From positions 1-41,429 of the IMG/VR virus record IMGVR_UViG_3300050821_001698: a stretch of 41,429 nt of DNA, one strand, 5' to 3'. A model generated the notes under the pieces. It did no database searches and was not told the DNA's origin. It worked only from the letters and a program-made list of their open reading frames with translations. The stretch is from a virus. The position numbers were made by a program, and so were the translations under genes. Below are positions 1,724-28,882 of the stretch, one piece after another. Numbering within the stretch: the first letter of the stretch is position 1; each line of letters opens with the position of its first letter.

Positions 1724-2044
1724 TTAGCTGCAATCCTTGATGCAGGAGCAGGCTTTCGGGCGGCAGTAGGTCTTGCACTTCCCAGTGCGAGCAACAGGCT
1801 TGCCAGGATGAGCGCATTGCGTAGCCGCTTCGCATTCACAGTCATGGATAGCCGCCTTTCCGGTTTTGGAGAAGTTATCGCAGGATGCGGGTTGCTCTTT
1901 GCCTTGGTAATCGCGGTACTTCCCATCCTCGCAGGGCTTGTCTGAGCCCCAGCAGGGCGGGTTGCTATCGTCCTGGGCCGCATGGTAGGCGGGGGCGAGC
2001 ATCCCGAGGCAGCAAAGCGCGACGAATAGGTAGAGTGTTTTCAT
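1724..2044 (-). CDS. Secreted Cys-rich small protein
   Basis: 106 residues. An N-terminal signal peptide (MKTLYLFVALCCLGML...YHAAQ) is followed by an acidic and polar region with about ten cysteines, ending in a dense cluster (CKTYCRPKACSCIKDC). This suggests disulfides or metal binding outside the cytoplasm. The ATG overlaps the stop of the winged-helix gene (ATGA). I do not recognise the family. Confidence 0.8.
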   Translation of the reverse strand: MKTLYLFVALCCLGMLAPAYHAAQDDSNPPCWGSDKPCEDGKYRDYQGKEQPASCDNFSKTGKAAIHDCECEAATQCAHPGKPVARTGKCKTYCRPKACSCIKDCS

Positions 2045-2241
2045 TGGACCTCAACGAGTTGATAGACCTTTGACCGCCTGCCATTGCGATGGCCCCAACC
2101 CTGGATCAGCTTCCCGGTGTTCACTAGGTGCGTAAGCCGGGTATCTGCGGATGAGTATGTGAGATGGTACCGCTCCATGTAGTCCCTGATTGAAAACCCG
2201 TGCCCTTGTTCATAGCCAGCGGCCTTATTGAGCTTGTCCAT
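2041..2241 (-). CDS. Winged-helix-like small protein
   Basis: 66 residues. The pattern FSIRDYMERYHLTYSSADTR then LVNTGKLIQGWGHRNGRRSK and VYQL matches a helix-turn-helix with recognition helix and a basic beta-wing, as in small MarR/ArsR-like or phage winged-helix proteins. Its position at the end of the late unit, facing P1, makes a regulatory role conceivable. Confidence 0.7.
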   Translation of the reverse strand: MDKLNKAAGYEQGHGFSIRDYMERYHLTYSSADTRLTHLVNTGKLIQGWGHRNGRRSKVYQLVEVQ

Positions 2242-2273
2242 CTGTTCCCACAGATCATCGGGCGGGGCCGGTC

Positions 2274-3098
2274 TTACAGGTGGACGACGCGCTGTGGCGG
2301 GAGGTCGTAAATTTTTTTGTGCAATACGCAGGGATCTTCTCCTTTCGCCTTGAGCGAGCCGTCTACGGTGAAACGCACGGCTCCAAGGTCTGGAATCATT
2401 CGATAGCGCGAGTTCTTACGCATATACGAAGTTTGCAGTTGCCACGCGGGAAGGATTACCGCGTGCTTGCTGACGTGCTCGACGTGGACGAAGTAATGAG
2501 CGTGCGCCCTCACGATCACGTCGGCCTTTGGCGCCTTGCCAGTCTTCCCGGCGATAGCCGACCATAGCGCCTCGCGGTCTATAGCCACGGCGCGATAAAG
2601 GCCGCCTGAAACGCTGATGCCGTGAGAGAAATCGAATACCACTCCCTCAACATCGAGGTCCATGACTTCTTTGGCATACGTTCCGACTCCCAGACCTTCG
2701 TACGTGATCGCTTTAAGCGCCTGCCCAACGTTATCGACGCTGCGCCCCAACTCATCATCGTGATAAGGTGTGCCTTTGACGAAGTAGACTTTCTTGGGCT
2801 TGGTAGCTTCGATTAGCGGGGCAAGGATTTGAATGGAGGCCTGCTCCTGATCGATTACGAGCGGCAGGCACAACTCAGAGGCGCGGCTCTTGGGCTGCTT
2901 CCCTTCTACGACATCGCCCACAACCACGATAGCGTCTACCGGCCCGACCCACTTACACATGTCGGTCCAGCAATCCCAGAGGTACTTCTGCCCTACGTTT
3001 TGACCGATTGGCTGGCCGTTTGAGCCTGAGAAGTTTGGCGGGAGCATCCCATAGATCGATCCCGGATGGATGTCTGAAACGGTAAGGATGCGCTTCAT
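2274..3098 (-). CDS. Calcineurin-like metallophosphoesterase
   Basis: 274 residues. Metallophosphatase blocks appear in order: SDIHPGS (residues 8-14), VVGDVVEGKQP (about 60-70), KGTPYHDDE (about 108-116), FSHGISVSGG (about 156-165) and RAHAHYF (about 198-204). These supply the His/Asp/Asn-type ligands of a two-metal site, though the usual GNHD is replaced by GTPYH. Phage versions act on nucleic acid or phosphoesters; the substrate is unknown. The start overlaps the stop of the 60-residue gene upstream (ATGA). Confidence 0.8.
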   Translation of the reverse strand: MKRILTVSDIHPGSIYGMLPPNFSGSNGQPIGQNVGQKYLWDCWTDMCKWVGPVDAIVVVGDVVEGKQPKSRASELCLPLVIDQEQASIQILAPLIEATKPKKVYFVKGTPYHDDELGRSVDNVGQALKAITYEGLGVGTYAKEVMDLDVEGVVFDFSHGISVSGGLYRAVAIDREALWSAIAGKTGKAPKADVIVRAHAHYFVHVEHVSKHAVILPAWQLQTSYMRKNSRYRMIPDLGAVRFTVDGSLKAKGEDPCVLHKKIYDLPPQRVVHL

Positions 3099-3277
3099 TT
3101 GGTGTAACGTTTCACGAGTTCACCCTTGAGGTAGACACAGAGATCCAGAGCTTCCTCATACGCATTTTGCAGCCAGTCTCTTCCATCGTCGGGCAGAAGC
3201 TCCTGTTTATAGTTGGCCCATCCCATCGCATTGCGTTTATCGAAGTCCTCTTTGACGAGATCGAAAAGGGTTTTCAT
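3095..3277 (-). CDS. Small helical phage protein (MazG-like in pattern)
   Basis: 60 residues. The segment GWANYKQELLPDDGRDWLQN followed by AYEEALDLCVYLKGEL resembles the short phage proteins that carry part of a MazG-type helix bundle with acidic EE...D residues. It is too short to be a complete enzyme alone. It is joined by TAATG to the HNH gene upstream and ATGA to the phosphoesterase downstream. Confidence 0.65.
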   Translation of the reverse strand: MKTLFDLVKEDFDKRNAMGWANYKQELLPDDGRDWLQNAYEEALDLCVYLKGELVKRYTK

Positions 3278-3687
3278 TAGTGGATCGTCTCAAATTGGCC
3301 TGTTATGGGATTGCGCGGTGGAATAAATTGTCGCCTATTCCTAGCCTGTTCTTTCTTTGTCGCCCATCGGCAGTTCTCAGGAGAATACGGACCATCATTG
3401 TCAATGCGGTCGATGGAATGCTGCGGCGATGGCTTGCGGCCCATATCTCCGAGAAAGCTCTCGAACACATGCCAGCGCTCACACACGCGAATACCACGGC
3501 CGCCATACCAGAGAAACGACGGATTACGAGGATTCTCGCAGCGCTGGAGCATTTGGCTCCACGAGCGATATTCGGACCACCATTGTCCAGGTCGCGTAGC
3601 GCCATGCCTCGTACGGGCCGCTGAAATGCGGGCACGCGATTCATCTGTGTGATAGTGACTACCTTTGAGAGGCCCCTTCTTGCTCAT
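3277..3687 (-). CDS. HNH-type endonuclease-like protein
   Basis: 136 residues. The signature [20 protein letters not shown] followed by [20 protein letters not shown] is the pattern of small phage HNH/homing-type nucleases, with a basic N-terminus. Phage HNH proteins can be free-standing homing enzymes or packaging helpers. Its place beside the lysis genes, far from terminase, favours a mobile origin. Confidence 0.8.
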
Positions 3688-4070
3688 TAGTGGATAACCT
3701 GTAGGTCTTTATCGAGAGTTTGAGCGATTAAATCCCTTACTATTTTGGGCAATATTATACATCCACGACTTGAGCATCCAGGATTGGTTGTACTGTCTCC
3801 ATGAATAAGAAAGCCGGATCTGCCGTACATGGTGTTCTTGACATCCGGAGTTAGCGGCAAGCACTCGGGGCCATGCTCCGGGGAGTCGAACGGCATACCT
3901 ATGGTATAGAAGCCGGTTGGGATTGGGCCAACATTAGGGACATTCTCCATCTTGGGGTTGTTCATGCCGGCGCCGTTTCCCGAGTAGCCTTTGGATACGA
4001 GGTTCAGTTTGATGGGAACGACATTGAAGATGCGAAACAACTCGCCCCAGCCTGAGCTATAGACCCACAT
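3687..4070 (-). CDS. Cell-wall hydrolase, DUF2778/L,D-transpeptidase-like fold (endolysin candidate)
   Basis: 127 residues from ATG 4070 (GGGAGG about 8 bases upstream); 14 codons further upstream are open but lack an SD. The C-terminal motif GFLIHGDS...[11 protein letters not shown] supplies His90 and Cys104 in the arrangement of L,D-transpeptidase/Tlde1-like (DUF2778) enzymes, and [11 protein letters not shown] and LPLTPD are typical of this family. There is no signal peptide, so a holin would be needed for export. The adjacent small membrane protein gene supports a lysis cassette. Confidence 0.8.
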
Positions 4071-4071
4071 C

Positions 4072-4308
4072 TCACTTCCCTCCCATGACGTGCGCCAAAA
4101 ACAGCGCCCCAAAAACGAGAATCAGGAATGCGCAGAACGCGATTCCGCCGCGCCAAAAGTTAATCTGTGAACTATGCTGATCCTGTATCTCTTCGAGTTC
4201 CGTAATCTTCCCTTTACGCCCGTCCCCGCCAAACAGTTCCGTGTCCATGCGGTTGACGGTCGTATGAACTTCGACCAGTAAGTCGCGGTCTGATTTAGGT
4301 TCGTTCAT
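4072..4308 (-). CDS. Small membrane protein, holin candidate
   Basis: 78 residues. A polar, coiled-coil-like N-terminus (DRDLLVEVHTTVNRMD...ITELEEIQDQ) is followed by one hydrophobic helix (IAFCAFLILVFGALFLAHVM) and a short GGK tail. The layout matches XhlA-like holin-associated proteins. It sits directly upstream of the endolysin candidate and is coupled to the gene before it by ATGA. Confidence 0.7.
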   Translation of the reverse strand: MNEPKSDRDLLVEVHTTVNRMDTELFGGDGRKGKITELEEIQDQHSSQINFWRGGIAFCAFLILVFGALFLAHVMGGK

Positions 4309-4577
4309 TTGTGGGCCTTGGGTTTGGTTTTCTTCTCAACCGCTTTGAACCACGCATTGCATCGTCGCAAAGCTTTATCGAGCGAAGCATCTCTAGCCAA
4401 CTGAAGCCGCCACTCTGCTCCGCCTTCGTACTTGCCCCAGACATCCAAGCGCCAGTCACCCTCAATCGGGTCTTTCTTGACATCGCATCCGTAGTTTTTC
4501 AGTCCTTCGAGCGGAGGGTTTTGGGCCGAGACGGGAACGGCGATGAGGAGCAGGACCGCGAGCCACTTCACTGGCAC
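4305..4577 (-). CDS. Secreted small protein, possible lysis accessory
   Basis: 90 residues. The signal peptide MPVKWLAVLLLIAVPVSA/Q is followed by a polar domain with two cysteines (GCDVKKD, RCNAWF) and a lysine-rich C-terminus. Its place in the lysis cassette would suit a periplasmic spanin-like role, but I see no lipobox, so this is a guess. Confidence 0.65.
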   Translation of the reverse strand: MPVKWLAVLLLIAVPVSAQNPPLEGLKNYGCDVKKDPIEGDWRLDVWGKYEGGAEWRLQLARDASLDKALRRCNAWFKAVEKKTKPKAHK

Positions 4578-4620
4578 AAGGCACTAAGCGTCCAAGAGCC
4601 GTCTGGATTCTGCGTAATCG

Positions 4621-5001
4621 TTAATTCTCCACAGGTGAACCCAGCAGTGGAGCTTTTGGGCCTTGATGCGCATAGACGTTATAGCCAGCAACTGTGCCCG
4701 TCTCTGTCCATGTAAGCGTTGCCGTGTGCGTTCCCGTAGGTGGGACCGTCGCCACCACGGAGTTACTCGGGACCGATTCCAAACCGAACGAATCGACGGC
4801 CGTAACGATGTACTGACATTGCGTGGCATCAACGCAAGCGCTGTCCACGTAAGTCTGAACGGTTACGAGTGAGGCGTTTAGTTTGACGTAGCCGGTTGGA
4901 ATCTGGGCGTGTGCGTTGACAGTCGCCAAGAACCCAAATAAAAGGGCCACCAGTGCCGCGACAAAGTATTTGCGCAAGTTCGGCTGCTTTGCTGAGTCCA
5001 T
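4621..5001 (-). CDS. Secreted fibronectin type III-like protein
   Basis: 126 residues from ATG 5001, preceded by a strong GGAGG. A signal anchor (YFVAALVALLFGFLATVNAH, then AQ) leads into one FN3-like domain: CQYIVTAVDSFGLESVPSNS, then HTATLTWTETGTVAGYNVYA. Such domains are common in phage fibres and secreted surface proteins. It lies between the tailspike candidate and the lysis cassette. Confidence 0.75.
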   Translation of the reverse strand: MDSAKQPNLRKYFVAALVALLFGFLATVNAHAQIPTGYVKLNASLVTVQTYVDSACVDATQCQYIVTAVDSFGLESVPSNSVVATVPPTGTHTATLTWTETGTVAGYNVYAHQGPKAPLLGSPVEN

Positions 5002-5070
5002 CGTCTGCCTCCGTAAATCGTCGAGATTTAGCCACACATTCTCACCACGCTCCGCAATGGGGAGGGAGCA

Positions 5071-6918
5071 TCAGTGTGCGAATGTGAGCACTTCAATTAG
5101 GTCGCCGCTTGCAATTGCTGCTGCACTCGCCGTGCACGTGGTCGTCGGTGTTCCTGATACCGTTGGTGTAATAGTGTCTGCTGGAGTTGTCTTATCTGCG
5201 AACCAGCAGTTCCATTCGTTGGGAGCAGCTACCGAACTTGGGGTCAGTGTAATTGTGGCCGCTCCGCTCGTTCCGGTGCATTTGAACGAACTATTCATCT
5301 GCCCACCGAGGGCACTGCTGTTGGTGGCGCACGCGCCAGTTCCCGCAATCGTCATCAGGCCAGGGCCACTCGATACGAATGACCCCTCACCAACTAGCCG
5401 ATCAACAACAACGCCGACGCCGCTCAAATACCAAACAGCAAGCGGCGATGTACAGGACACCGTACCACCAGGGTCTGAAATTAGAATAGTTCCCGCGCAA
5501 ATCGGAGACGTTAAGAGAGCCTGAACGTTAGTGTTTATCTTTAGAATTCCGTTTGTAATTGAGCGAGTAAAATTAAGCGCCGGACCAAGGGTATTATTGA
5601 GGGGGTTTATCTTGCCATCGACCTTCCAGTAGGTCGCATTCCCGGAAATGTTGAAATATGTGTTGTTCGAGGCAGCGTTGCTGTCCACCTGCAAGTTGAA
5701 GGTGGCATTCTGAATGGAGCCAGTAGCAGAAGCAGTATCCTGAACTAGAACCGCGTTCGTGGCGACCGTTTCATTGGCATAGCCATAAAATGACGGTCCC
5801 TGGATGATGCCAGAACCCTCATCCAGATATAGCAAGGAATTATTAGGGGCAGTAGAAGTGGTGGATTGGCTGGAGAGTATGGTTCTAGACCCGGTAAAAA
5901 TGCCGATGCTCTGAGAGGCTGAACCTGCGAATGACACGTAGGGGCTTGTGAGCCCGGCGGTGTTTGCGTAAGAAAGTGTGACGGGAACTCCCGTGGCGGC
6001 GTACTCAAAATAAGCCGTGTCGATGGATGAGAACTGTTCTCCCCGGTAGTTGTAATAAATCCAGGGACTGTATCCCACCACAAAGCAATCCACCAACTTG
6101 TTTTGGATTCCGTTTGAGCCGGATGTACGCCCATGCAGGAAACAGGCTGTCGGAGCATTGGCGGTTGATGTTCCGCATTTGAAAACGATATTCTCAAACT
6201 CAAGATTGATACTTCCAGATATATCGACTCCTGCCGTCCCAGCGCCAGGGGCATAGTTGAACGTCAATACCGTACCAGTTTGGGAAGAATCTCCCGGACT
6301 ACTGGCAAAGGCCGATGCGCCTTCAAACGTGCAGCCCGTCATGTTTGTGAGGTTCCAGCCGGGAGAGGTAAACGCATAAGTTCCGGGAGGGATAATTACC
6401 CTGCCATTGCTAGTCCCGCCCGGTCCGCCGCAAGCCGCCAGCGTAGCCGCAATTATTCCTGCTCCAGTTTTCGGGTACGTCACCCCATCCACGAAGATGA
6501 TGGAGTTGAGGGAGGGTACTGGTCCATTGGCTAATGATGTTCCGATCCACGTGTTGATTGTCCCGTCGAAAGTAAAGCTGCAGATGGTCGTTGCGTTTGC
6601 ACCCACGTTGACCGTGCAGGCACTGGTTATGCTAATAGTTGGCCCGCCGAATGGAGCCGTCCAGGATGAAAAAGTTACCGAGAAGCCTCCTGTAGCATTT
6701 TCCACAAACTCCACAATGACATTTCCCTGTGCAGGAGTCGGGACGCCGACGAATTGGAATGTTGTGACATTCTGCGTGAGTGTTACCTTGAAATTCTTCC
6801 AACCGTTTCCGTCTATGGGAGCCTGTACCGTTCCATTAATGCTCGTAGACAGCACGAGTTGCCCAAAGCACGGCGCGGCAAAGAACAGGAGCAATGGGAG
6901 TAGGGTGAACCTTCTCAT
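5071..6918 (-). CDS. Tailspike/tail-fibre-like protein with beta-helix character and N-terminal signal peptide
   Basis: 615 residues. It begins with an apparent Sec signal peptide (MRRFTLLPLLLFFAAPCFG/Q). The body is rich in Ser, Thr, Gly and Asn. From about residue 140 it shows VDGVTYPKTGAGI...GGTSNGRVIIPPGTY, the entry motif of pectate-lyase-like right-handed beta-helices found in tailspikes. The C-terminus looks like a trimerisation or receptor-binding module. Catalytic residues cannot be assigned by eye. A 14-bp near-palindrome lies about 40 bp upstream of the start. A signal peptide on a tail protein is odd. Confidence 0.75.
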   Translation of the reverse strand: MRRFTLLPLLLFFAAPCFGQLVLSTSINGTVQAPIDGNGWKNFKVTLTQNVTTFQFVGVPTPAQGNVIVEFVENATGGFSVTFSSWTAPFGGPTISITSACTVNVGANATTICSFTFDGTINTWIGTSLANGPVPSLNSIIFVDGVTYPKTGAGIIAATLAACGGPGGTSNGRVIIPPGTYAFTSPGWNLTNMTGCTFEGASAFASSPGDSSQTGTVLTFNYAPGAGTAGVDISGSINLEFENIVFKCGTSTANAPTACFLHGRTSGSNGIQNKLVDCFVVGYSPWIYYNYRGEQFSSIDTAYFEYAATGVPVTLSYANTAGLTSPYVSFAGSASQSIGIFTGSRTILSSQSTTSTAPNNSLLYLDEGSGIIQGPSFYGYANETVATNAVLVQDTASATGSIQNATFNLQVDSNAASNNTYFNISGNATYWKVDGKINPLNNTLGPALNFTRSITNGILKINTNVQALLTSPICAGTILISDPGGTVSCTSPLAVWYLSGVGVVVDRLVGEGSFVSSGPGLMTIAGTGACATNSSALGGQMNSSFKCTGTSGAATITLTPSSVAAPNEWNCWFADKTTPADTITPTVSGTPTTTCTASAAAIASGDLIEVLTFAH

Positions 6919-7077: not shown

Positions 7078-7533
7078 ATGAGACGCCTTCTGTTCCTGCT
7101 ATCGTCGCTCTTGGTGCTCTGCCAGTTGACCCACGCTCAGAAGAAACAATCCGTTCAAATCGTGTATAGGCAGGCTAATCAATCCCAAGGTATCTATTCC
7201 GTCCCTGGGTATTCACAGACGAATTGCAATGGTGTTGGTTCCTGCAATCAAACGTACAATCCAGCGCATTCAGGAACCTACAACGTAAATGGCGCAACAT
7301 TCTCCCTGCTCTTGCCAGACGGTCGGTTGGTTGTGGTCACCTGTTCGGCGAAATTGAACTGGTCAAATTTCAATGGTGTCTACCGGAGTTGCCGCCAACC
7401 ACTTACCGATACAGTAGATGCCGACTTTAATGGTGAAAACGCAAAACTCGAATGGTCGATCTCGCTAGACGGCAAGAAAAAACAGAGCGAGACATACAAA
7501 ATCATCGGAGTCCTCGCGAAAAATCCGTCATGA
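7078..7533 (+). CDS. Secreted protein of unknown function (rightward moron)
   Basis: 151 residues with GGAG upstream of ATG. The signal peptide MRRLLFLLSSLLVLCQLTHA/Q is followed by a beta-rich mature part: GATFSLLLPDGRLVVVTC, RSCRQPLTD, then ADFNGENAKLEWSISLDGKK. The pattern resembles small secreted proteins I associate with Acidobacteriota genomes, from memory and unverified. It runs against the surrounding late genes and overlaps the next gene (ATGA), so the two form an inserted pair. Confidence 0.85.
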   Translation: MRRLLFLLSSLLVLCQLTHAQKKQSVQIVYRQANQSQGIYSVPGYSQTNCNGVGSCNQTYNPAHSGTYNVNGATFSLLLPDGRLVVVTCSAKLNWSNFNGVYRSCRQPLTDTVDADFNGENAKLEWSISLDGKKKQSETYKIIGVLAKNPS

Positions 7534-7895
7534 AATACTTGCTACCATTCGTTTTGCTTACTTCTCTGCTCTGCCCTGTGGTGAGAGGCCAGGGGCCTGC
7601 CGTGTCGGGGAATGAAACAAAAGTCCGCGCCGTATTGTCTAATTTGAATCAGATTTATCCGCACGATTGGCGCTTTGTGATTCTGGAAGAAAAAGCATGG
7701 AACTCAGTGCATAACAAGAGTACCGAAATCGCTTTCACTGTTAGAGCGCTCCGAACGACTTATATACGGGAATCCTTTCTCACGACTTCCACTATCCCAG
7801 AGTTGCGTCATGTGATGCTTCACGAGGCGGGCCACATCGCGTGTGCCTGCGAAAATGAGCACACCGCAGAATTGTTCGCGCAACTCCGTCAGTAA
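7530..7895 (+). CDS. Secreted HExxH metallopeptidase-like protein
   Basis: 121 residues from ATG 7530, overlapping the previous stop. The signal peptide MKYLLPFVLLTSLLCPVVRG/Q leads to one small domain with a zinc-peptidase motif LRHVMLHEAGHIACACENEH: HEAGH supplies two His ligands and a catalytic Glu, and the following Glu/His could be the third ligand. It is short for a peptidase. It ends 13 bp before the convergent fibre gene. Confidence 0.75.
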   Translation: MKYLLPFVLLTSLLCPVVRGQGPAVSGNETKVRAVLSNLNQIYPHDWRFVILEEKAWNSVHNKSTEIAFTVRALRTTYIRESFLTTSTIPELRHVMLHEAGHIACACENEHTAELFAQLRQ

Positions 7896-7908: not shown

Positions 7909-9162
7909 TCAGTTTTCAGTGTATTCAAATGTAAATGTGCCCGCGCCTGGGAAGTTGCCGCACCCAACTGCATTGGTGCTCTCGCGAATATCGAAAGTGT
8001 GCCCGGTAGGAATGGTCGTCGGCCCCACGGCCTGATTATATTGCGCCGTACTAGCCGCTGTCGTTATCGCGCTGCCAGAAACCGCTCCACCGGCCGTCTC
8101 ATCGAACAATTCAAACACGGCATAAGTAGAACAGCCAGAAGGTGCAACGCCAGATATAGCTAGGCGAACCGCTGCAACGGAAATGGAGCCGCTAGTGGTG
8201 TGGAATAGCGCAATGATACTGTTGGGTAAATTACTCAGACTACAACTACCTATGCAAAAAAAGCCCGTCCCGAACATCTGGGGCACATTCGAGATTGTCA
8301 CGCCGCCAATGGTGGGAGTTGTGAGTCCGGGCGATGTTAGGTTGCAACCCGTCGTTCCTGAAGCGCATAGCGTTCCGCTGCCGCTATTGCTGAGAGACGT
8401 AATTTGCTGACCGTTAATTTTGAACACATTCCCGCTGCCGCCAGTGTCGAAGGTCTTATTCGTGAAAGCATCTGGCGAGTTGCGCCCCACGACCGTATCG
8501 ACTGTGCCGCCGTTGTTGCTCATGGCCCAGCGATGAGCGGAGTTATCGGCATAGAGCAGATCGCTCGCCGCTACTCCGCTCGGCGCCGTGACTTCGGGGA
8601 ACAGCATTGACCCGCCAGCCCAAGAGAAGAGATCATTCGTATTTTTTGAGAAGCAAAGGTTCGCGTTATTTGCGTTGTTCCTGAAGCAGAACGAGTCGCC
8701 CGATGCGAGTCTCAAGATGCCCGAGGTTGCCGGATTTGGGGATGCGGAGATGAAGGGAGATGAAGAGGATCCAGAACTACCGCCGCCGAAGCCTGGCACG
8801 TTATCTACGGTGTAGAGCGTGTCTCCGCTCGCGCAAGCCGCTCCATCGTTCTGCACGCAAAGTTGGAATTTATAGAATTGATTCAAGAGCCATACTTGCG
8901 GCAATCGTCCCGAAGAGTCGGCGGGGATCGGATTCGGATTGAGTATGATTCCGGTTGAGTCCGTGTACGTGCTGGCCTGAGTCGATGTTCCGGCGTTGAA
9001 CACATAGAGCACTGCGTTTGGCTGAATTGTCCCGGTATTCGAGAGTGGCTGCAGGCGAAGCTGGGGCATGAGTTGAACTGATTGCGCTTGAAGTGGTACG
9101 ATGGCACACAAGGCTATGAGCACCGCCGTTGGAATTATCGCCTTCGTGATCCTGAGTAGCAT
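7909..9162 (-). CDS. Tail-fibre-like protein with N-terminal signal peptide
   Basis: 417 residues from ATG 9162 (GGAG at about 6 bases); 36 open codons upstream lack support. A signal peptide (ITKAIIPTAVLIALCAIVPL then QA/Q) precedes a typical phage fibre N-terminus: YVFNAGTSTQASTYTDSTG and PIPADSSGRLPQVWLL, the pattern of virion-anchored fibres. A Ser/Gly hinge (about residue 140), repeats such as SGILRLASGDSFCF and a beta-rich C-terminus follow. It lies directly after the ejection proteins, as expected for a receptor-binding fibre. Confidence 0.8.
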   Translation of the reverse strand: MLLRITKAIIPTAVLIALCAIVPLQAQSVQLMPQLRLQPLSNTGTIQPNAVLYVFNAGTSTQASTYTDSTGIILNPNPIPADSSGRLPQVWLLNQFYKFQLCVQNDGAACASGDTLYTVDNVPGFGGGSSGSSSSPFISASPNPATSGILRLASGDSFCFRNNANNANLCFSKNTNDLFSWAGGSMLFPEVTAPSGVAASDLLYADNSAHRWAMSNNGGTVDTVVGRNSPDAFTNKTFDTGGSGNVFKINGQQITSLSNSGSGTLCASGTTGCNLTSPGLTTPTIGGVTISNVPQMFGTGFFCIGSCSLSNLPNSIIALFHTTSGSISVAAVRLAISGVAPSGCSTYAVFELFDETAGGAVSGSAITTAASTAQYNQAVGPTTIPTGHTFDIRESTNAVGCGNFPGAGTFTFEYTEN

Positions 9163-10283: not shown

Positions 10284-11715
10284 TGTAGGGTCGGAAGTTC
10301 TTGCCGTCCGTTATGCCCATGCGCCCGTCTGAGTGGGTCGTCCAACTCCATCCTTGTGGGAGCGTAACGTCTTTCGGATACTGTCCTTCCGCTGCACCGG
10401 CCTTCGGCTCAAGCCCCTTCATCTCCACCGGCTTGAACTTTGCCCCGAAGGTCTGGTTGATCGTGTCGAGCGTGTTCTCGTACTTCGCCCGATTCCCTCT
10501 CGCCATGAGGTCTTGCATCTCGGACATATCATCGAGCACGGAATCGGGAATAGACTTGCCGGTAAGAGCTTTGCCGAGATGCCCCTGCATTCGCTGCCAG
10601 AGCGAGCCGCCGCCATAGTTTTGAATCTCGGCCATATTGATGCGCTTCACGCCCTGCGAAGTGGTGATCTGCAGTGCGCCCTCTTGCGGGATCAACTGAT
10701 AGGCGACGACGTTCCCCTTCTTCGCGTCGTCCATCATGGCCTTCAACCGATCGGTTACGGACAATGACTGCGCGTATTCGCTACCCGCTTTGTTCGCCGC
10801 TTCGCTGGCAGGCGTTATCAGATGCGGTGGAACATTGGCGAGCGCAGCGTTTGAACCTCGCGCCGCCTGTGCTTCGGTATTCGCTCGGGCTACGCCCTCA
10901 GCCGCCGAGACTGCCTCCTTCCCTGCCTGGATCTGCGGATTCGTGGCAACGGCAACATCCTGGTTAACCTTCTGCTGTCCTTCCGGTGACAAGCCACCGC
11001 CTTCGGGAATTACTTTCTGTTTGGCCTCGGCCGCTTCGCTCTGCTCTTTGCTGAGCTTCGCGTGGTACGAGTCCATAGCGGCGTCGAGCTTGAGGACCTG
11101 CGCAACTGCGGCTAGGTGGCCGACATCGGCCTGCTGGAAGAGCTTGGAATCGTTGGCATCTATACCAGGAAGGGGATTCCGCGCGTACTCTGATTTAAGG
11201 GTGTCGAGTGCCATCTGCTGCTTTGCTGGATCTTTTATGTCGAGGACTTTGGCAACGTCCTGACCCATCTGCTGATGCGACTCTGCGCGATTCTTTAGGT
11301 AATCACCACTGGCGGCGCCGAGGTTCTTACGAATCTCTGAGTTGTTCTTGGCAATCGTCTGAAAGGAGTTAACGACTTGCGACGCCTGTTCCGGCAACAC
11401 TTTCATCGAGAGAAGATGCTGATAGGCACCAGCAGCATCGAAGCCTGAACCGTCCGGTGTATCTACGCCCGCGAATTTATTGAGTTCCCCATTGGCGACA
11501 GCGTCCATCATGGCTTTCTGGCTGGCGAGCGCCGTCTGCTGTTGCTGCGTGGCAAGAGCCGCCTGCTTTGCCTTTTCCTGTTGCTCCTGAATCTGTAGGG
11601 GCAAAAGCTGGTTCATCTCACGCAATGAGCCCATTTTCTGAGCCATGCCTAAGAGGTCGGGCGGCGGTTGCTGCGGGATGGTGTAGTTAGGGAGTGGTGC
11701 GGAGGGTATCGGCAT
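10273..11715 (-). CDS. Internal virion / DNA-ejection-type protein, coiled-coil rich
   Basis: 480 residues. A Pro-rich N-terminus leads to a Gln/Ala coiled coil (LPLQIQEQQEKAKQAALATQ), then long helical segments. It ends in a small beta module (LPQGWSWTTHSDGRMGITDG) close to the stop. The start is fused to the previous stop as TAATG, and the end overlaps the next gene by 11 bp. It takes the position of P22 gp20. It could instead be a scaffold-like core protein. Confidence 0.65.
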   Translation of the reverse strand: MPIPSAPLPNYTIPQQPPPDLLGMAQKMGSLREMNQLLPLQIQEQQEKAKQAALATQQQQTALASQKAMMDAVANGELNKFAGVDTPDGSGFDAAGAYQHLLSMKVLPEQASQVVNSFQTIAKNNSEIRKNLGAASGDYLKNRAESHQQMGQDVAKVLDIKDPAKQQMALDTLKSEYARNPLPGIDANDSKLFQQADVGHLAAVAQVLKLDAAMDSYHAKLSKEQSEAAEAKQKVIPEGGGLSPEGQQKVNQDVAVATNPQIQAGKEAVSAAEGVARANTEAQAARGSNAALANVPPHLITPASEAANKAGSEYAQSLSVTDRLKAMMDDAKKGNVVAYQLIPQEGALQITTSQGVKRINMAEIQNYGGGSLWQRMQGHLGKALTGKSIPDSVLDDMSEMQDLMARGNRAKYENTLDTINQTFGAKFKPVEMKGLEPKAGAAEGQYPKDVTLPQGWSWTTHSDGRMGITDGKNFRPYNAK

Positions 11716-12659
11716 TATTGAACCATGTTCATGTCAGAGAGTGCGCCGCTTGGATTCTGCATCCACGGATCCATCCCGCTCGGTTGCATCCACGGTGCCG
11801 CGCCCCAAGGAGCTGACCCACCGCCGCCCCAAGGTGCGCTACTCGGAGCGGTCGTGTTCCAATTCGCGGGATTCAGTTGATTGAGCATTCCATACTGCAT
11901 GGCCGTGTTTCCGAGATTGCTGAACATCCCCGAGAGGGCCGAACCTGTACCAATCGTGCCTGCCGCGTGTGCCGCGCCTTGCTGGTTGTACAAACTGGCA
12001 ATGTCGGCTCCGGTTCCTGTTGTGATGTTCCCGAAGTTCTGGGCCCCCATCTGATTGAGGTTCCCCATCTGGCCGGTTGCATTGAGCCCCTGATTCGACA
12101 TCCCGAATAGGCGGTTGTACGTGTTGTTCTGATTGTTCTGGAAGGTGTTGTAAGCCGAGTTGTACTGCTGAAGGGCGTTATTGAAGGTGTTCTGGTAATT
12201 TGTACTGGCAAGTCCTTGCCCAAAACTATTCATGTCGGCCAAGGTCTGCCCAGAGAGTAATCCGCCGCGTGCCGCGGCTGAGTTCTGGATTGCGTTCTCG
12301 CCTTGCTGGAGTTGGAACTGATAGCCGGGGGTTTGCGCCGCTTGTGCCGCAGTCGGTGCCGTGAAGGTGTTGGTCCACGGCGTCAGTAATCCCTGCCCGG
12401 GAGTGCCCAGCATCTCATTGAGGTTGCCCGTCGCATTCGCGCCAGCAGAAAGGTAAGGCGCGTAGTTGGACTGGTTCTGCCCGAGGATGTTCTGCTGGAA
12501 GCCGAGCGCCTGCCCTTCGGACTGCTGGAGTTGCTGTTGCGCTTGCTGCTCGGCCTGGATTTGTTGCTGCGCGGCATGGGAGGCAGAGCTCGCGCCGAAT
12601 AAGCCTCCAAATAGGCTTCCGATACCGCTGATGATTGGTCCAGCTAAGAAGGCTGCCAT
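11715..12659 (-). CDS. DNA transfer / ejection-type protein
   Basis: 314 residues. A hydrophobic Gly-rich start (AGPIISGIGSLFGGLFGASS) is followed by a Gln-rich helix, then the signature NYAPYLSAGANA...TPGYQFQLQQGENAIQN, SAAARGGLLSG, typical of podovirus DNA-transfer proteins. The C-terminus is Gly/Trp/Pro-rich (SAPWGGGGSAPWGAAPWMQP). It is the first of three consecutive ejection-type genes. Confidence 0.75.
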   Translation of the reverse strand: MAAFLAGPIISGIGSLFGGLFGASSASHAAQQQIQAEQQAQQQLQQSEGQALGFQQNILGQNQSNYAPYLSAGANATGNLNEMLGTPGQGLLTPWTNTFTAPTAAQAAQTPGYQFQLQQGENAIQNSAAARGGLLSGQTLADMNSFGQGLASTNYQNTFNNALQQYNSAYNTFQNNQNNTYNRLFGMSNQGLNATGQMGNLNQMGAQNFGNITTGTGADIASLYNQQGAAHAAGTIGTGSALSGMFSNLGNTAMQYGMLNQLNPANWNTTAPSSAPWGGGGSAPWGAAPWMQPSGMDPWMQNPSGALSDMNMVQ

Positions 12660-17399: not shown

Positions 17400-18668
17400 T
17401 TAGCTCGCAATCCGTACCGCGCCTTGCGGGTACTGGGTTAGCCATCCGCCGAGTACGTCGAGACGCATCAGCAAACGGTCGGTGTTGATGTCGGGCTGAG
17501 CCCACATGCGGATCGCCAGGCCCAACTCCTTGTCCGCAGCCATTTCCATGATGTGCTGACCTTCGTAGGTTTCAAGGTCGGCGCATCCGAAAGTGAATGC
17601 GGATGGATGGAAAGCTACGCCGCGATAGGACTGCACTGCGCTGGCTCCCTGAACTGTGATCGCCGCACTGTTGGCCGGCGAAACATCTACAGTCTGATAG
17701 GGTCCACCAAGCGTGATGCCGTCACCGTCGACGCAACCGATCGGGATGGTCGCATTGCCGCCGCCGTCAGACGTTACGTTGGCGAGGACCACGAAGGGTC
17801 GCAAGTCGCCCGTAGATTGACGTGTGAGCGGATTGACGCGGTGAACGCCAGCGAAGAAAATGATGTCGCCAGCATTGAGAACTGCGGTTGAGGCAGTCCA
17901 GCCGTTCGTGACGATGCTCGAACCGGACTGGTTTGCACCATTGACTACCGGGGTTCCGCCTTGCGTGCCGGTCTTGAAGGTGGGCACGTTTTGCGACATG
18001 AACCACTCGAAGCCCAGCCCTTCGGCTACCAGGCCCTTGAAGTAGTCCTCTTCGCCGCCCTTGCCGCCCTTCAAGTTGCGAAGGAAGCCAAGAGACGCCG
18101 TGCCGCCAGCATTTGTGATAAGCCCTTGGAGTGCCGGGAAGATCGCCCGTTGCATACGCGGAGAGATGTGCAAAGACAAATTTTCTTCGTCGTCAATCGG
18201 GAAACCTTCGTCTGCGAGGATTTGCAAAGCGTTCAGATACGTGTCTGCGGCGGTGGGCACCGTTCCAGGCGTCCCAACTTCAGCAGGCACATCGACAAAG
18301 CGCTGCAAACCATCGAAGTCCACATCATTGGCGATCTGGACGATGAGCGGCTTGGTGACTCGGTTCGTGAAGTCATCCAGGCTCAAGGCCATATCGGAAG
18401 AGGTAAATCCGCGCGCTTGCTGATACTGCTTGTTCAGAACCAGCGGAACAGAGCGTTCAATGTAGTCCTGCAACTGAATGCCCTGCCCTGCCGTGGATAC
18501 CGCACGCGCGGGCTTGCGGATGTTGATGATGTAGCCGATTTTCGCGCCGGCGCGACCGAACTTATCGTCGTACTGGCGGTCAACCTTTTTGGTGAAGGAG
18601 ATCGAGTTTTCAAGAACCAATAGGTTCTTCCAACTGATCTCCTGTCGGGTAAGTAATACGTTTGCCAC
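17400..18668 (-). CDS. Major capsid protein, P22 gp5-like
   Basis: 422 residues from GTG 18668 with AAAGGAG upstream. The opening ANVLLTRQEISWKNLLVLEN and the GDIIFFAGVHRVNPLTRQST and MRLDVLGGWLTQYPQGAVRI stretches match the P22-type HK97-fold coat family. It follows the scaffold gene immediately, as in P22. The length is near that of P22 coat (430 residues). Confidence 0.9.
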   Translation of the reverse strand: MANVLLTRQEISWKNLLVLENSISFTKKVDRQYDDKFGRAGAKIGYIINIRKPARAVSTAGQGIQLQDYIERSVPLVLNKQYQQARGFTSSDMALSLDDFTNRVTKPLIVQIANDVDFDGLQRFVDVPAEVGTPGTVPTAADTYLNALQILADEGFPIDDEENLSLHISPRMQRAIFPALQGLITNAGGTASLGFLRNLKGGKGGEEDYFKGLVAEGLGFEWFMSQNVPTFKTGTQGGTPVVNGANQSGSSIVTNGWTASTAVLNAGDIIFFAGVHRVNPLTRQSTGDLRPFVVLANVTSDGGGNATIPIGCVDGDGITLGGPYQTVDVSPANSAAITVQGASAVQSYRGVAFHPSAFTFGCADLETYEGQHIMEMAADKELGLAIRMWAQPDINTDRLLMRLDVLGGWLTQYPQGAVRIAS

Positions 18669-18686: not shown

Positions 18687-19652
18687 CTATCGCTCTGCGG
18701 CGGCTGCTAACCTTAAATCTTTGGCTTTGCCCGGGTAGTTGGGCTTCGCGGCAATTTCCGCAAAGCTAAGAGCGGCTGAAGATCCCGCAGTACTGACCGT
18801 CCGCACCGGAGCGGGTACTTTGGGTTTAGGTTTTGTGGTTTCTTCGCTGCGAGCCTCGCCAGGTGCAGGCGCGCCAGTCTTCAGCCTCGCGGAGAGGCGA
18901 CCGACTTCCATCACAGCGGAGAGTGGAGATAACTCACCGAGTTTTCGTGCATAGGCAGGGTGTCGCCCAAGGTAATAAACCACTTCGGCGCCATTCTCCT
19001 GCTCTAAGATCGCTAGTTGAACTTCGCGGCCAATGTGGATGTCTTGATTAACCACATCGTCCCAATCCTCATAATTGTCCTTGGCCTCTTCTACTTGGGC
19101 CTTGTAACTGAGGAGGTTTTCGTTAAAGCGTGCCTGGTCGGCGGCCTGCGCATCCTTGATGGCTTTGTCCTTGATCCCTTTGTCCAGGCCCCATGCGATC
19201 AGCGCATCTTCATACTTCTGTTGGCCTTCGTCGCCCTGCTCGAACTCGGCTCGCTTGGGGCGTTGAGCTTCCTTGGGCGCTTCTTCCGTTTTGGGGGCTG
19301 CGGCCTTGCCGGATTCTTCCAGCTTCTTGCGTAGTTCCTCGTTTTCGCGCTTCAACTCCGCCGTAGCTCGTTCGATGGCCCTCGTCTTGCGGCTCTTGCG
19401 CGGAGGCGCAACTTCTTCCTCTTCTTCCCCTGCGGCTGCGGCCGGCTTGGCTTCTTGCTTGTCCTGCCATCCGACATGCGCAGCCTCAAATTCCTCTTCG
19501 GTCTTGAAGTCCTCGCGCTTGGGCTCGGCGGTGACTTCGGGCTTCTCCGCTACTTCGTAGCCAGCGCGTTCCACTACGGCCTGCAGGTTCTTTTCGCGGA
19601 CTTCATCGCTAACTTCGTGGCTGGCAGACTTAAGTATTATTCCGGTCGGCAT
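18687..19652 (-). CDS. Scaffolding protein
   Basis: 321 residues, highly charged and helical. It has Glu-rich and Lys-rich blocks (EEEEEVAPPRKSRKTRAIER; TAELKRENEELRKKLEESGK) forming a coiled coil, a conserved-looking middle (VVYYLGRHPAYARKLGELS) and a basic C-terminus. The middle motif and the position just before the coat gene are typical of podovirus scaffolds, which guide coat assembly and then leave the head. Confidence 0.85.
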   Translation of the reverse strand: MPTGIILKSASHEVSDEVREKNLQAVVERAGYEVAEKPEVTAEPKREDFKTEEEFEAAHVGWQDKQEAKPAAAAGEEEEEVAPPRKSRKTRAIERATAELKRENEELRKKLEESGKAAAPKTEEAPKEAQRPKRAEFEQGDEGQQKYEDALIAWGLDKGIKDKAIKDAQAADQARFNENLLSYKAQVEEAKDNYEDWDDVVNQDIHIGREVQLAILEQENGAEVVYYLGRHPAYARKLGELSPLSAVMEVGRLSARLKTGAPAPGEARSEETTKPKPKVPAPVRTVSTAGSSAALSFAEIAAKPNYPGKAKDLRLAAAAER

Positions 19653-19660: not shown

Positions 19661-20575
19661 CTATTGCTGAACGTAGGTGATTCGTACTGACAAAATGGGT
19701 GTCGACCCTACCGTACTAAGTACGCAGAGTCCCTGGCTTGCTCCGGTTGCAAACAACGTCCCGCCGTAACCCTCGGTCCACACTACTGGAGCGGTGAAAG
19801 TGGAGTTGCTATACGTGTTCGTTAGCGCTGTAGGAGAAGTGGCACAGGACGCGCCGGTGCCGTTCTCAAGAATGGCGGTGTTTGTTGTGGTGGTCGAAAA
19901 GCTGCTAATCACATAGCTGCAAACGTAGGTATTCGTCGTGCCGGACGGTGCGACAAGAGAAGTGGTCGTGGCTGTGGTGATGTTTGCGAACGCGGACTGT
20001 TTCTGCTGGCTCAAGTCTTGGCAAGGATCGGTCGACCCGGGCACTACCGGAGGGGCCGCAGCAACGATTAGCGAAGGGTCGATAGCCGCTTGAGTGAGTG
20101 TGATGTTGATGTTGGCCGCACCTGAACCATAGGCCGAGGCGCGCACGCGGAAGCGCATCGCCGCCCAAACGGGACATTGCCATGCGCGCACCTGATTGGT
20201 CGGAACGACTTCGCTCGCTTCCAAAATGTTGACATCGGTGCGGGCGCAGACTTCCTGAAAGTAGTTCGTGCCAGCGGTCGGGTCGGAGAAGTCAAAGCCG
20301 ATGGTCACGCCGGAGTAGGTGCCTGAAATGGTGATTGTGGCCGCTGCATAGTTCTGCACAGGCACGTCGAGCGTGGAACCTGATCCGGAGGTCTGCGGCG
20401 AGCCGCTGATTCCCAGTGTGGTCACGAACACTTGGTTCGCGCATGTGGCGTTCGGCGTGCTACAGGAAGACGTAAGTTGGCCGTTGTAACTGATGTTGGG
20501 CAGGATGTTCTGAGCGAACAGGCTTCCGCCAGTCGCCAGCAGAACTAGCGAGAGAAACAGCAATTTGATTTTCAT
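19661..20575 (-). CDS. Secreted-type protein between portal and scaffold genes
   Basis: 304 residues. The signal peptide (MKIKLLFLSLVLLATGGSLF then A/Q) is followed by a Thr/Ser-rich beta body with paired cysteines and the stretch VWAAMRFRVRASAYGSGAAN, then NITLTQ, which I associate with phage structural proteins. The location between portal and scaffold is unusual for an exported product. No P22 counterpart is known to me. Confidence 0.75.
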   Translation of the reverse strand: MKIKLLFLSLVLLATGGSLFAQNILPNISYNGQLTSSCSTPNATCANQVFVTTLGISGSPQTSGSGSTLDVPVQNYAAATITISGTYSGVTIGFDFSDPTAGTNYFQEVCARTDVNILEASEVVPTNQVRAWQCPVWAAMRFRVRASAYGSGAANINITLTQAAIDPSLIVAAAPPVVPGSTDPCQDLSQQKQSAFANITTATTTSLVAPSGTTNTYVCSYVISSFSTTTTNTAILENGTGASCATSPTALTNTYSNSTFTAPVVWTEGYGGTLFATGASQGLCVLSTVGSTPILSVRITYVQQ

Positions 20576-20580
20576 TGGAC

Positions 20581-22773
20581 CTAGCCTGTGCTCCCTGGCA
20601 CTGGTGTAGTTGGTGCTGCTGGCGTGATGGGTTGGACTTTGGGCTCTACTTTCCCGGGCAATTCTGGCGTCTGCGGTGCTGCGCCGGCCTCTTGCTCTAC
20701 GCTCATGGAGTCATGCAGGGTTTCGAGCCGATGAGTAATGATGCCAAGCTCTTCCTCTAATCGCGCTTGCGCTGCGGCATCGTGACTCTTCAATAATTGC
20801 AATATGATCTGCGTGCGGTTGTTTTCAAGGGACACGCGCTCCCTACTCTCGATGTCTAACCGCTTGGTGCGGATCGTATCGGACGCACGGGCAAGTTCCG
20901 CCACAAGTTGCTGTTGCTGCGCGGTCAACTGTTGGATCATCGCGCCTTGTTGCGCTAGCTGGGCGTCCTTGTCGGCAGGGTCGGCGTCTTGGAACTGCGG
21001 TGGAACCATCTTCTTGAAAATCTTTGCCAGTTGGTCGGCACCGTTAAAATCAGCATTCTGGGCCCACAAATACAGTATCGGCATAAATGCTGGGCTTTGA
21101 GCAATCGCTGGCTGTGCGATTACTTGCGTGAGAGCCTTGAATCCTTCCTGCCGCCCTGTCTGACTCATGGGCCCAGCAGAAAGCGTAACGTCATACTCGC
21201 CCTTGCCAACATCGTAGGCTTTGCGGATGGCCTGCATATCGAGCAGGTAGGACGCATCTTCCGGCGTGCTTCCATATTGCGAATTGAAAATGGCTGCGTG
21301 CTTGATGCTGTCATCGGGGTTGATGATGCGCTGCAGCTTGGGCTCGGTAATGTATCGGGGCCAAAGGTCCAGAAGGAGTTTGCCTTGCCAGCGAATCGCC
21401 CGGTTCAGGTTGTCGGAGTAACTCAGCATCCCTTTGTCGGATTGCTGCTGCCGGGTAAGGATGGCGAAGCCCGACTCAGCCTGCAGGTTGGGCTGGTCGG
21501 CTTGCGGGCCATAAATTCCGATGACCGCTTTCATGTCGTAATCCGCCTGCTTAATGATCGCCGCCATTCCAGCGATGTCCACGTTGCGATTGGCACGGCT
21601 GGGCGGCGGGAGCGGCCGGTCCTGCTTATCGAATGGCTGGTAAGGGATGTAGGCGAAGTTCTTGCGGTTCATCAGCCGATAGAACTCTTCGAAGTTCTCC
21701 GTGGCGCCCATGGGCACAAACAGCGGGTCTTTGCCTTGGGCGTCTATCTGCTCAACTTGCCGCGTAACCATGAAGTCATAGATCCGCTGCGCATCCCGGT
21801 AATCGCGCACCATACCGGCTTTATAAGCTCTGCCATTTACGTTCAGGCGCACACCAAACAGGTCTACCAGCGGAATGTATTTGCCGAGATACTCATACTT
21901 TTCGAGGACTTCGACGGCGTTGTGCTTAACGCAATGAACCTTGCGGATAATCGTCTCGCGTTCGTCGTCAATGACGCCCTTCTCAAGTGTCGACAGGTCT
22001 TTTTTGAGCTTCACACTGCCATCGGAGAGTTGGCAGATGGTCTCTGGGATAAGCTCAACCCACCAGTATTCAGCTACACGCGCGCCGTGCTTTGTGACCC
22101 AACCGGGCACAGGTGATCCGGTATCGGTCGGAAAGCGCAACTGGACCATGAGCGTATTGCCATATTTGGCCTTGTACTCTTCTTTGCTGAGGTCCTCGAC
22201 AACGTGCGCCCACAGCGGGTCCTGCCCGAGTGGATTGCGAATGGGAGACAGGTAAGCGTTGAAGGGATTCTCGAATGGCTCAATCCGAGGCTCTTGGTCG
22301 AAGGACATCTCCGAAACGTAGTCGGTCTTGACTCGCCACGGGCACCAGCCGGTGCGCATCATCCAATCGTAGGAATCGTCATAGGTCACATCCGCGAAGC
22401 TGGCGACTTCGATATGCCGCAGGACGCCTTGATGAATCTTGGCAAGCTCCAAATCCGCGCCTGACCCGACTGGATTAACCAGCATGGAGGGCCGATGCTG
22501 CCGCTCATCCCCTGTGTATTGGCGAAGGAATGAGGGCGCGCGGTTGATGGTTAGGCAGGGCTTGCCGTCTATTTCGCGGTTGGCCTTGACTGCCTCATCC
22601 CATTGGCCTGTGCCGATGGAGAATTTTAGGTCCTCAAGCCCCTGCTTGCGGGATTCCGACTCTGCTTCGGCAGTTATTTCGAAGCGCTTCAGGGACGTGG
22701 TAATGACGGTCTCGGCGTCTCCCTGCAGCTTCTTGTCGCGTTTACGGGACTTTGAGTCGAGGATTACGGCCAT
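20581..22773 (-). CDS. Portal protein, P22 gp1-like
   Basis: 730 residues, close to P22 portal (725). Family landmarks: KPCLTINRAPSFLRQYTGDE and DVTYDDSYDWMMRTGWCPWR near the N-terminus, PFNAYLSPIRNP, and a long C-terminal Gln-rich coiled coil (QLAQQGAMIQQLTAQQQQLV), which would form the barrel seen in P22. Twelve copies would form the packaging vertex. Confidence 0.9.
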   Translation of the reverse strand: MAVILDSKSRKRDKKLQGDAETVITTSLKRFEITAEAESESRKQGLEDLKFSIGTGQWDEAVKANREIDGKPCLTINRAPSFLRQYTGDERQHRPSMLVNPVGSGADLELAKIHQGVLRHIEVASFADVTYDDSYDWMMRTGWCPWRVKTDYVSEMSFDQEPRIEPFENPFNAYLSPIRNPLGQDPLWAHVVEDLSKEEYKAKYGNTLMVQLRFPTDTGSPVPGWVTKHGARVAEYWWVELIPETICQLSDGSVKLKKDLSTLEKGVIDDERETIIRKVHCVKHNAVEVLEKYEYLGKYIPLVDLFGVRLNVNGRAYKAGMVRDYRDAQRIYDFMVTRQVEQIDAQGKDPLFVPMGATENFEEFYRLMNRKNFAYIPYQPFDKQDRPLPPPSRANRNVDIAGMAAIIKQADYDMKAVIGIYGPQADQPNLQAESGFAILTRQQQSDKGMLSYSDNLNRAIRWQGKLLLDLWPRYITEPKLQRIINPDDSIKHAAIFNSQYGSTPEDASYLLDMQAIRKAYDVGKGEYDVTLSAGPMSQTGRQEGFKALTQVIAQPAIAQSPAFMPILYLWAQNADFNGADQLAKIFKKMVPPQFQDADPADKDAQLAQQGAMIQQLTAQQQQLVAELARASDTIRTKRLDIESRERVSLENNRTQIILQLLKSHDAAAQARLEEELGIITHRLETLHDSMSVEQEAGAAPQTPELPGKVEPKVQPITPAAPTTPVPGSTG

Positions 22774-25620: not shown

Positions 25621-25623
25621 TGG

Positions 25624-25815: not shown

Positions 25816-25825
25816 AATTTGCACC

Positions 25826-28172: not shown

Positions 28173-28258
28173 ATCGCCCTCACCGCATCCCGAATGTGCT
28201 TGCCGAGTGTGATTACCCTATCATCAAACACTTCTCTTACCCGGAAGGGGCAGCGCAT
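28169..28258 (-). CDS. Small ORF, possibly the 3' part of a frameshifted gene
   Basis: 29 residues from ATG 28258 (MRCPFRVREVFDDRVITLGK...); the stop overlaps the next ATG. The same frame continues open and strongly protein-like upstream to 28373 (GSAVAFDDSTLQRAHVVSPA) with no ATG, GTG or TTG. A 17-codon ORF from GTG 28406 could feed it by a +1 shift at CTG-TGA (28358-28353), giving 78 residues. See findings. Confidence 0.5.
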   Translation of the reverse strand: MRCPFRVREVFDDRVITLGKHIRDAVRAI

Positions 28259-28352
28259 GGCTAAAGGTGATAGTATTCTCTTGGGGCCTGCTGGACTAAC
28301 GACGTGAGCACGCTGCAGCGTTGAATCGTCAAAGGCAACGGCAGACCCCCAC

Positions 28353-28406
28353 TCACAGCCTCTTACCGGCCTTTCGTATCAGGTGGCAGATGCCTACGAA
28401 GATCAC
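28353..28406 (-). CDS. 17-codon ORF, possible 5' part of a frameshifted gene
   Basis: GTG 28406, reading MIFVGICHLIRKAGKRL then TGA. It begins 4 bases after the stop of the 51-residue gene, as expected in this packed chain. By itself it is hardly a gene; joined by a +1 shift it makes a 78-residue product with 28169-28352. Confidence 0.35.
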   Translation of the reverse strand: MIFVGICHLIRKAGKRL

Positions 28407-28409
28407 AAG

Positions 28410-28565
28410 TCACGGATTCGCGCTTGGGGGCGTTGTTGGCATCGGCGCTGTAGCTGGCTGCTTCTTCTTATGGAACAGGTGAATGATCGCGCCTATCCCC
28501 TTCTGAATCTCAGGTTCGAGATCCTTGAATGCTTCGACCGCAGCAATGATCTCGGAGGGGGTCAT
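28410..28565 (-). CDS. Small hypothetical protein (51 aa)
   Basis: ATG 28565, two bases after the upstream stop, with CC between. Product MTPSEIIAAVEAFKDLEPEI followed by QKGIGAIIHLFHKKK and a Pro/Ala/Thr tail. An amphipathic helix with a Lys cluster. It lies between a secreted-type protein gene and the frameshift candidate. Unknown family. Confidence 0.65.
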   Translation of the reverse strand: MTPSEIIAAVEAFKDLEPEIQKGIGAIIHLFHKKKQPATAPMPTTPPSANP

Positions 28566-28567
28566 GG

Positions 28568-28882
28568 CTATTTTTTTGTTGCGCCTTTGGCCGCAGCCTT
28601 GGCCTGCTTGGCGGCTAGCTTCTGCGCGGTCACGACAGCCGTGGGATGCGCGATATTGTGGAAGAAGTCCACGCCGGCATCGGCCACAGCGTCTACCTTG
28701 GCGAATCCCTGGGCGATCTTGCCAGTGACGTATTCTGCGGTGTCGGTGCCCACCGTTACCGCGTGCATGATGGTGTCGGGTGCCAGGGCCAGTACGCTCA
28801 CGAACGAGCGCGCCTGGGCTTGCGGAGTGAAGAGAGGAAGAAAGCTCACAGCTACGAAAATAGCGAACAGTTTCTTTTTCAC
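28568..28882 (-). CDS. Secreted-type small protein
   Basis: 104 residues from GTG 28882 (AAGGAG upstream). The signal peptide (KKKLFAIFVAVSFLPLFTPQ then AQA) is followed by an Ala/Val-rich helical body (TAEYVTGKIAQGFAKVDAVA) and a Lys/Ala-rich tail. It could be a small envelope protein. Position next to a holin-like gene suggests an early-late envelope function. Confidence 0.65.
   Translation of the reverse strand: MKKKLFAIFVAVSFLPLFTPQAQARSFVSVLALAPDTIMHAVTVGTDTAEYVTGKIAQGFAKVDAVADAGVDFFHNIAHPTAVVTAQKLAAKQAKAAAKGATKK

Follow-up and report, generated by a model that had tools for sequence, protein, structure and literature searches.

The window analysed here is a complete virus record of 41,429 bases (IMG/VR record IMGVR_UViG_3300050821_001698) that encodes a P22-type podovirus, and ten of its products, including the predicted tailspike and the products of genes flanking scaffold and coat, begin with putative Sec-type signal peptides. 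Comparison with PHROGs returned a P22-type gene set of portal, scaffold, coat, gp10-like hub, gp7-like ejection protein and terminase, the first five in the order of a P22-like podovirus; Pfam and PHROGs returned little for the ten signal-bearing products. The main genes are listed below, with lengths in amino acids (aa) and a slash at each predicted cut.

26202: terminase (PHROGs)
20581..22773, minus strand: portal (phrog_156, E 8e-99); no signal
19661..20575, minus strand: gene in the portal-scaffold slot; signal at 20513-20575, 21 aa, LFA/QNIL; 8 mature Cys
18687..19652, minus strand: scaffold (phrog_8865, E 5e-30); no signal, no Cys
17400..18668, minus strand: major coat protein, P22 type (phrog_283, E 2.5e-57); no signal
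16596..17393, minus strand: coat-adjacent protein, candidate decoration or appendage; signal at 17325-17393, 23 aa, SQA/QTAM; 4 mature Cys
13126: gp10-like hub (PHROGs)
11715..12659, minus strand: ejection protein, gp7 type (phrog_598, E 3e-22); no signal, no Cys
7909..9162, minus strand: tailspike/fibre; signal at 9085-9162, 26 aa, ending LQA/QSVQ; 10 mature Cys; predicted tailspike head-binding domain at the mature N-terminus
5071..6918, minus strand: second fibre-like gene, 615 aa, positioned after 7909; signal at 6862-6918, 19 aa, CFG/QLVL

As the initial annotation of this DNA had proposed, all ten N-termini have the layout of a Sec type I signal, with a Lys/Arg n-region, an uncharged h-region and a small-x-small c-region. 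A lipobox Cys follows the h-region in none of them, indicating that they are signals for signal peptidase I (SPase I), not lipoprotein signals. Gln occupies position +1 in eight of the ten, or in nine with an HAA/Q cut for 1724, which agrees with the Gln noticed earlier after most cuts; 28568 has Arg. The most likely start of 7909 is 9162 rather than 9270, and the starts of 4621 and 28568 were corrected to 5001 and 28882, respectively.

A direct search of viral contigs with 16596 gave no matches, and relatives were reached through the coat gene instead (45 loci, mostly 77–96% identical in the coat). Signals were scored with our own heuristic for n-, h- and c-regions, not with SignalP, and six of 115 antisense open reading frames (ORFs) in the clade reached its cut-off of 4.6; we therefore relied on comparison rather than on scores. 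By score alone the weakest products are 5071 (4.5) and 7530 (4.4), and the fact that these two of the ten lie within the range of some antisense ORFs would fit an over-prediction, with hydrophobic starts of beta-rich proteins taken for signals. This explanation is exceedingly improbable, given the clade-wide conservation of signals at about 30% identity and the lack of signals at the corresponding gene positions of control phages. It is already contradicted for 7909, 16596 and 19661, whose case is independent of the score because their signals recur at the equivalent gene position across relatives. For 28568 and 1724, which have no relatives in the clade, their own sequence is the sole support.

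The first fibre gene, 7909, is a tailspike as judged from its family profile. A profile of eight 7909 homologues matched, in the PDB, the tail spikes 9vyg/9vyh (E 1e-8) and the head-binding domain of 7eeq (E 3e-5); the domain was detected solely with this profile. As in P22-type tailspikes (the gp9 class, including 9vyg/9vyh, 7eeq and the PBR31 spike), the head-binding domain is N-terminal and the gene follows the ejection genes in the late operon. However, known homologues start directly at the domain, without a signal peptide or a conserved C-x7-C pair, and the signal-less, cytoplasmically folded state of the class does not extend to the 7909 family members examined, which have a signal-like N-terminus. 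In tblastn searches the same domain was N-terminal in the PBR31 tail spike, the ctn9Y15 tail fiber and a DSL-LC05 protein, all three signal-less. Residue i of the mature 7909 family aligns with native residue about i−1 to i+3 of these signal-less spikes; since both numberings agree within about three, the signal sits directly before what is normally the N-terminus, which cleavage would restore. The exported domain has an extra conserved Cys pair, at alignment columns 110 and 119. On longer contigs, signals are present on the clear fibre genes that lie between the ejection genes and the lysis genes, a few of them just under the cut-off and judged by eye.

Both 5071 and 7909 had been called fibre-like, which their position supports, and a recognisable head-binding domain was found only in 7909. 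The one relative of 5071 (42%, in genome G014) is also signal-bearing, and tblastn of the second-fibre domains in public phages gave no match. A sister phage in G414 (locus L124) has a signal-bearing fibre gene of 2,489 aa with 78 Cys at 29984-37453 of its contig, and the signal-less fibres of G416 have 17 and 11 Cys.

Because cleavage is predicted from sequence, the hydrophobic N-terminus might also be kept and serve, in the membrane or the particle, as a helix for anchoring or docking. We consider this highly unlikely, as all that the separate gene families have in common is the signal pattern and an A/G-Q cut, matching host signals, and signal-less homologues begin at the cut position.

The coat-adjacent gene, 16596, was present throughout wherever the contig covers the position. 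Its homologues are 27–38% identical to the window protein, and the signal ends in A/G-Q in all 30 distinct signal-bearing ones; retention at ~30% identity points to signals under selection. A purine-rich tract precedes the ATG in nearly all rows of the family, and the signal region is itself under purifying selection, with a ratio of nonsynonymous to synonymous polymorphism (pN/pS) of 0.63 versus 0.44 for the mature part, although synonymous sites are near saturation. Controls with about 30–45% coat identity had no signals beside the coat (PBR31, ctn9Y15, PAE2, P26218, EBPR podovirus 1, VvAW1, Paraburkholderia and Burkholderia prophage loci, and others). Locus L018 lies inside the clade by its coat, yet its coat-adjacent protein lacks a signal, is free of Cys over the 167 residues available, and is 59–60% identical to the homologues of sister phages L089 and L092. 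The coat-adjacent proteins of L089, L090 and L092 are likewise signal-less and Cys-less, starting at the position of the mature Gln, and L092, from G414, has signals on all four fibre genes despite its signal-less coat-adjacent protein. From these four loci, signals and cysteines appear to be gained and lost together, gene by gene, rather than as a genome-wide property or an annotation artefact.

A structure model of 16596 had a folded N-terminal domain (residues about 1–150) and a poor C-terminal third. It gave no significant match to PDB folds, and in a viral library it matched many uncharacterised, fibre and baseplate proteins; tblastn of 16596 in public phages gave no match. Its place beside the coat and its fibre/tail-type domain suggest that 16596 is probably a virion protein made by an export route.

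The mature parts carry a second mark of export. Among proteins made non-redundant at 70% identity, signal-bearing products had even Cys counts in 42 cases and odd counts in six (p 1e-7), versus 88 even and 93 odd for signal-less genes (p 0.77). Exported proteins of some bacteria are known to favour even Cys numbers (PMC7678975). Cys density was 2.26 per 100 aa in signal-bearing products versus 0.57 in cytoplasmic virion proteins, and the scaffold, the gp7-type ejection protein and the next ejection protein have no Cys. Mature coat-adjacent proteins contain 4, 6 or 8 Cys, with an odd count in none of the 28 complete rows, and their Cys columns are present or absent pairwise: the pair 164-194 is invariant, 276-315 alternates, as do several C-terminal pairs, and 61-113, 63-111 and 67-110 substitute for each other, an exchange as expected if a bond shifted along neighbouring antiparallel strands. 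The fibre family has 10, 12 or 14 mature Cys (even in 8 of 8), and column pairs 110-119, 171-182 and 134-137 covary in the fibre and 19661 family alignments. The even-Cys bias and column covariation indicate that the mature parts are adapted to an oxidising compartment; a VKOR-family protein is present in the host-side bin.

A product could also exist in two forms, with an internal start giving a signal-less cytoplasmic virion form and the full-length form being exported. A Met does occur at mature position 4 of the window 16596 and near mature position 7 of several fibres. This Met is not conserved (it is Leu in most coat-adjacent homologues and absent from the G007 and G018 fibres), so internal starts were rejected as a source of a cytoplasmic form. 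Cys pairing, moreover, spans the whole mature chain, and the signal ATG is conserved, with the purine-rich tract upstream, making two forms very unlikely.

The slot between portal and scaffold behaves differently. The seven relatives of 19661 each have 6 or 8 Cys; in about a dozen loci the slot is empty (6–64 nucleotides), and otherwise it holds genes of about 118–704 aa, of several kinds and often unrelated, nearly all signal-bearing. This pattern of an accessory, variably present exported gene was seen for the 19661 slot and not for 16596 or 7909, neither of which is missing from any contig that covers its position. The 19661 model is of low confidence (mean predicted local distance difference test score, pLDDT, 58.5); its best PDB fold match, the Bacillus prophage proteins PBSX XepA and SPBc2 YomS, may serve as a lead only, and tblastn of 19661 in public phages gave no match.

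Such a moron-like pattern favours what we rank as the strongest alternative, that the products are exported and disulfide-bonded and never reach the particle, acting as free or cell-surface depolymerases, receptor blockers for superinfection exclusion, or surface coats. Signals and paired Cys speak for export only, and 7078 and 7530 form an opposite-strand pair. As a general explanation we nevertheless think it unlikely: the head-binding domain lies right at the mature N-terminus of 7909, where it would be useless to a free enzyme, the clade genomes examined yielded no spike lacking a signal, and signal-less homologues of 16596 adjoin the coat in sister phages. The initial annotation had offered free depolymerases or exclusion factors beside virion proteins; the former may hold for 19661, 7078/7530 and 1724, and a virion protein made by way of export fits best for 7909 and probably for 16596.

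The window phage belongs to a group of soil phages, and its host is probably an acidobacterium. The sole close match among 84,980 species genomes was a contig of 39 kb from a bin assigned to Bryobacterales (Acidobacteriota); as this contig consists of phage sequence throughout, the link depends on binning. Two further Acidobacteriota genomes, G259 (6.4 Mb contig) and G299, have signal-bearing fibres with the same head-binding domain on chromosomal contigs. When 396 genomes of the phylum were searched with the coat protein, the only matches besides the original bin were two that were distant or partial. In G259 (L128, 13693-19680), three signal-bearing fibre-like genes lie on the 6.4-Mb contig with few recognisable phage neighbours, and are either a phage remnant or a domesticated module.

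About 12 of 20 clear signals of the Bryobacterales bin, in our reading of a list of 24, have Gln at +1, indicating that the Gln pattern of the phage is a host habit. The host-derived N-terminus invoked earlier is thus unneeded, as the signals are host-like because they must function in the host. Pyroglutamate formation at the N-terminal Gln is plausible, but then not phage-specific, and we rejected it as a phage speciality.

Signal-bearing appendages also occur, as an independent case, in cultured phages. Tunturi_1 and Tunturi_2 are podophages of Tunturiibacter (PMC11924767), and in both the annotated N-termini of five products have signals: gp12, gp13 (tail fiber), gp14 (tail spike/pectin lyase), gp16 and gp17 (virion structural). 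Their mature Cys counts, 20, 10, 20, 1 and 32–34, respectively, are even in the large proteins. Like the window phage they are podoviruses of Acidobacteriota with signal-bearing fibre or spike genes, but their genomes are of 63 kb and their coat and portal order differs. Signals were absent from the annotated fibre and structural genes of Tunturi_3, a podovirus of the same strain, from the large structural genes of the siphovirus Tunturi_4, and from the tail and fibre genes checked in the myovirus Tunturi_5, indicating that the trait is lineage-specific and not imposed by the host. Neither "signal peptide" nor "mass spectrometry" is used as a term in the text of PMC11924767.

Burkholderia phage BcepC6B gp19 (L138:8998-10071, tail fiber) and Xanthomonas phage PBR31 orf035 (L047:24674-25483, putative structural protein) also have Sec-like signals, and each directly follows the preceding fibre or tailspike gene. 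Unlike the window phage, these proteobacterial phages have a single such accessory fibre, and the main spike of PBR31 is signal-less; single exported fibres may be more widespread. In the literature searched, phage signal peptides were on lysis and envelope proteins and we found no report of Sec signals on tailspikes, although absence there is not proof. Rz1, secreted endolysins and Lom resemble the ten products in being exported, but have lysis, membrane or exclusion roles, are not virion parts and lack a head-binding domain. Bor and T5 Llp are exported phage envelope proteins of the same type, likewise outside the virion and without a head-binding domain. The pIII and pVIII of filamentous phages are virion proteins bearing Sec signals, but are inserted in the membrane and assembled during extrusion, and are not soluble appendages of a tailed particle.

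Together, the signals are genuine by their layout and maintained, and the mature parts are adapted to disulfide bonding. Export with oxidative folding is very probable from the conserved signals, the covarying paired Cys and the Cys-less state of signal-less homologues, so that the export suggested by the initial annotation is strongly supported. We favour, with some confidence, a reading in which appendages are exported by Sec, disulfide-bonded and docked at lysis. The capsid, portal, tail hub and ejection proteins, all signal-less, would assemble in the cytoplasm, whereas the tailspike/fibre set (7909 and 5071) and the flanking 16596 and 19661 would be made as pre-proteins, pass through Sec and be cut by SPase I just before Gln (in 7909 restoring the native N-terminus of the head-binding domain), then form their disulfide bonds while folding in the periplasm. 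The opening of the inner membrane during lysis would bring packaged particles together with finished spikes and ornaments, which would dock from outside. P22 tailspikes are the last addition, from outside, onto finished heads, and can be added in vitro, so docking at lysis is feasible. Docking on particles is reasonably likely for the spike and less so for 16596 and 19661. That particles are built in two compartments and joined only at lysis in at least two podovirus lineages of Acidobacteriota has, in our estimate, an even chance of being right.

Several points weigh against this reading. Export, cleavage and presence on the particle are inferred from computation; the scorer is heuristic, with about 5% antisense hits; parity rows still share ancestry after deduplication at 70%; and the Cys counts of 5071 (13) and 1724 (11) are odd. 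The coat-adjacent proteins of L018 and G414 are signal-less, which means that this protein need not be exported, and the host assignment is indirect, depending on a co-binned 39-kb phage contig and on two further genomes of that phylum that carry fibre homologues.

By the textbook account, tailed-phage particles are made entirely in the cytoplasm; spikes made by a secretory route, if true, would split assembly across two compartments, explain a route to disulfide-bonded adhesins and leave particles armed only at lysis, and free periplasmic spikes could also block re-infection. The base type, a P22-type phage with tailspikes, is already known, and two-compartment assembly would be a new principle if shown. 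The cultured Tunturi_1 and Tunturi_2 make it testable, and signal peptides could help to locate receptor-binding genes in uncultured soil phages.

The remaining signal-bearing genes, predicted from sequence to encode exported proteins, are the following.

28568..28882, minus strand: early-region protein; signal at 28811-28882, 24 aa, AQA/RSFV; no Cys; no relatives found
7530..7895, plus strand: opposite-strand protein; signal at 7530-7589, 20 aa, VRG/QGPA; HEAGH zincin-like motif
7078..7533, plus strand: opposite-strand protein; signal at 7078-7137, 20 aa, THA/QKKQ; 4 mature Cys
4621..5001, minus strand: small protein; signal at 4906-5001, 32 aa, AHA/QIPT; no relatives found
4305..4577, minus strand: small protein; signal at 4524-4577, 18 aa, VSA/QNPP
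1724..2044, minus strand: small Cys-rich protein; signal at 1976-2044, cut probably HAA/Q; no relatives found

Genes 7078 and 7530 overlap by 4 nucleotides and form a plus-strand pair within the fibre module; the 7530 product has the zincin-like motif as HEAGH..E..H, and a relative (31%) lies beside the fibre in G010. A signal-less gene at 12664-13122, in the tail-needle (gp26) position, resembles the C-terminal part of a pectin-lyase PHROG and had no counterpart in relatives by tblastn. At the expected endolysin place, 3687-4112 encodes a Tlde1/YkuD (L,D-transpeptidase-like) domain and adjoins 4072, a protein with a C-terminal transmembrane segment; 4305 adjoins both, which suggests a possible lysis role. 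Finally, a second signal-like ORF (MTVNAKRLRNALILASLLLALG) at 1600-1845 is partly embedded in the 1724 gene in another frame, and could be either a chance occurrence or one of a nested pair.

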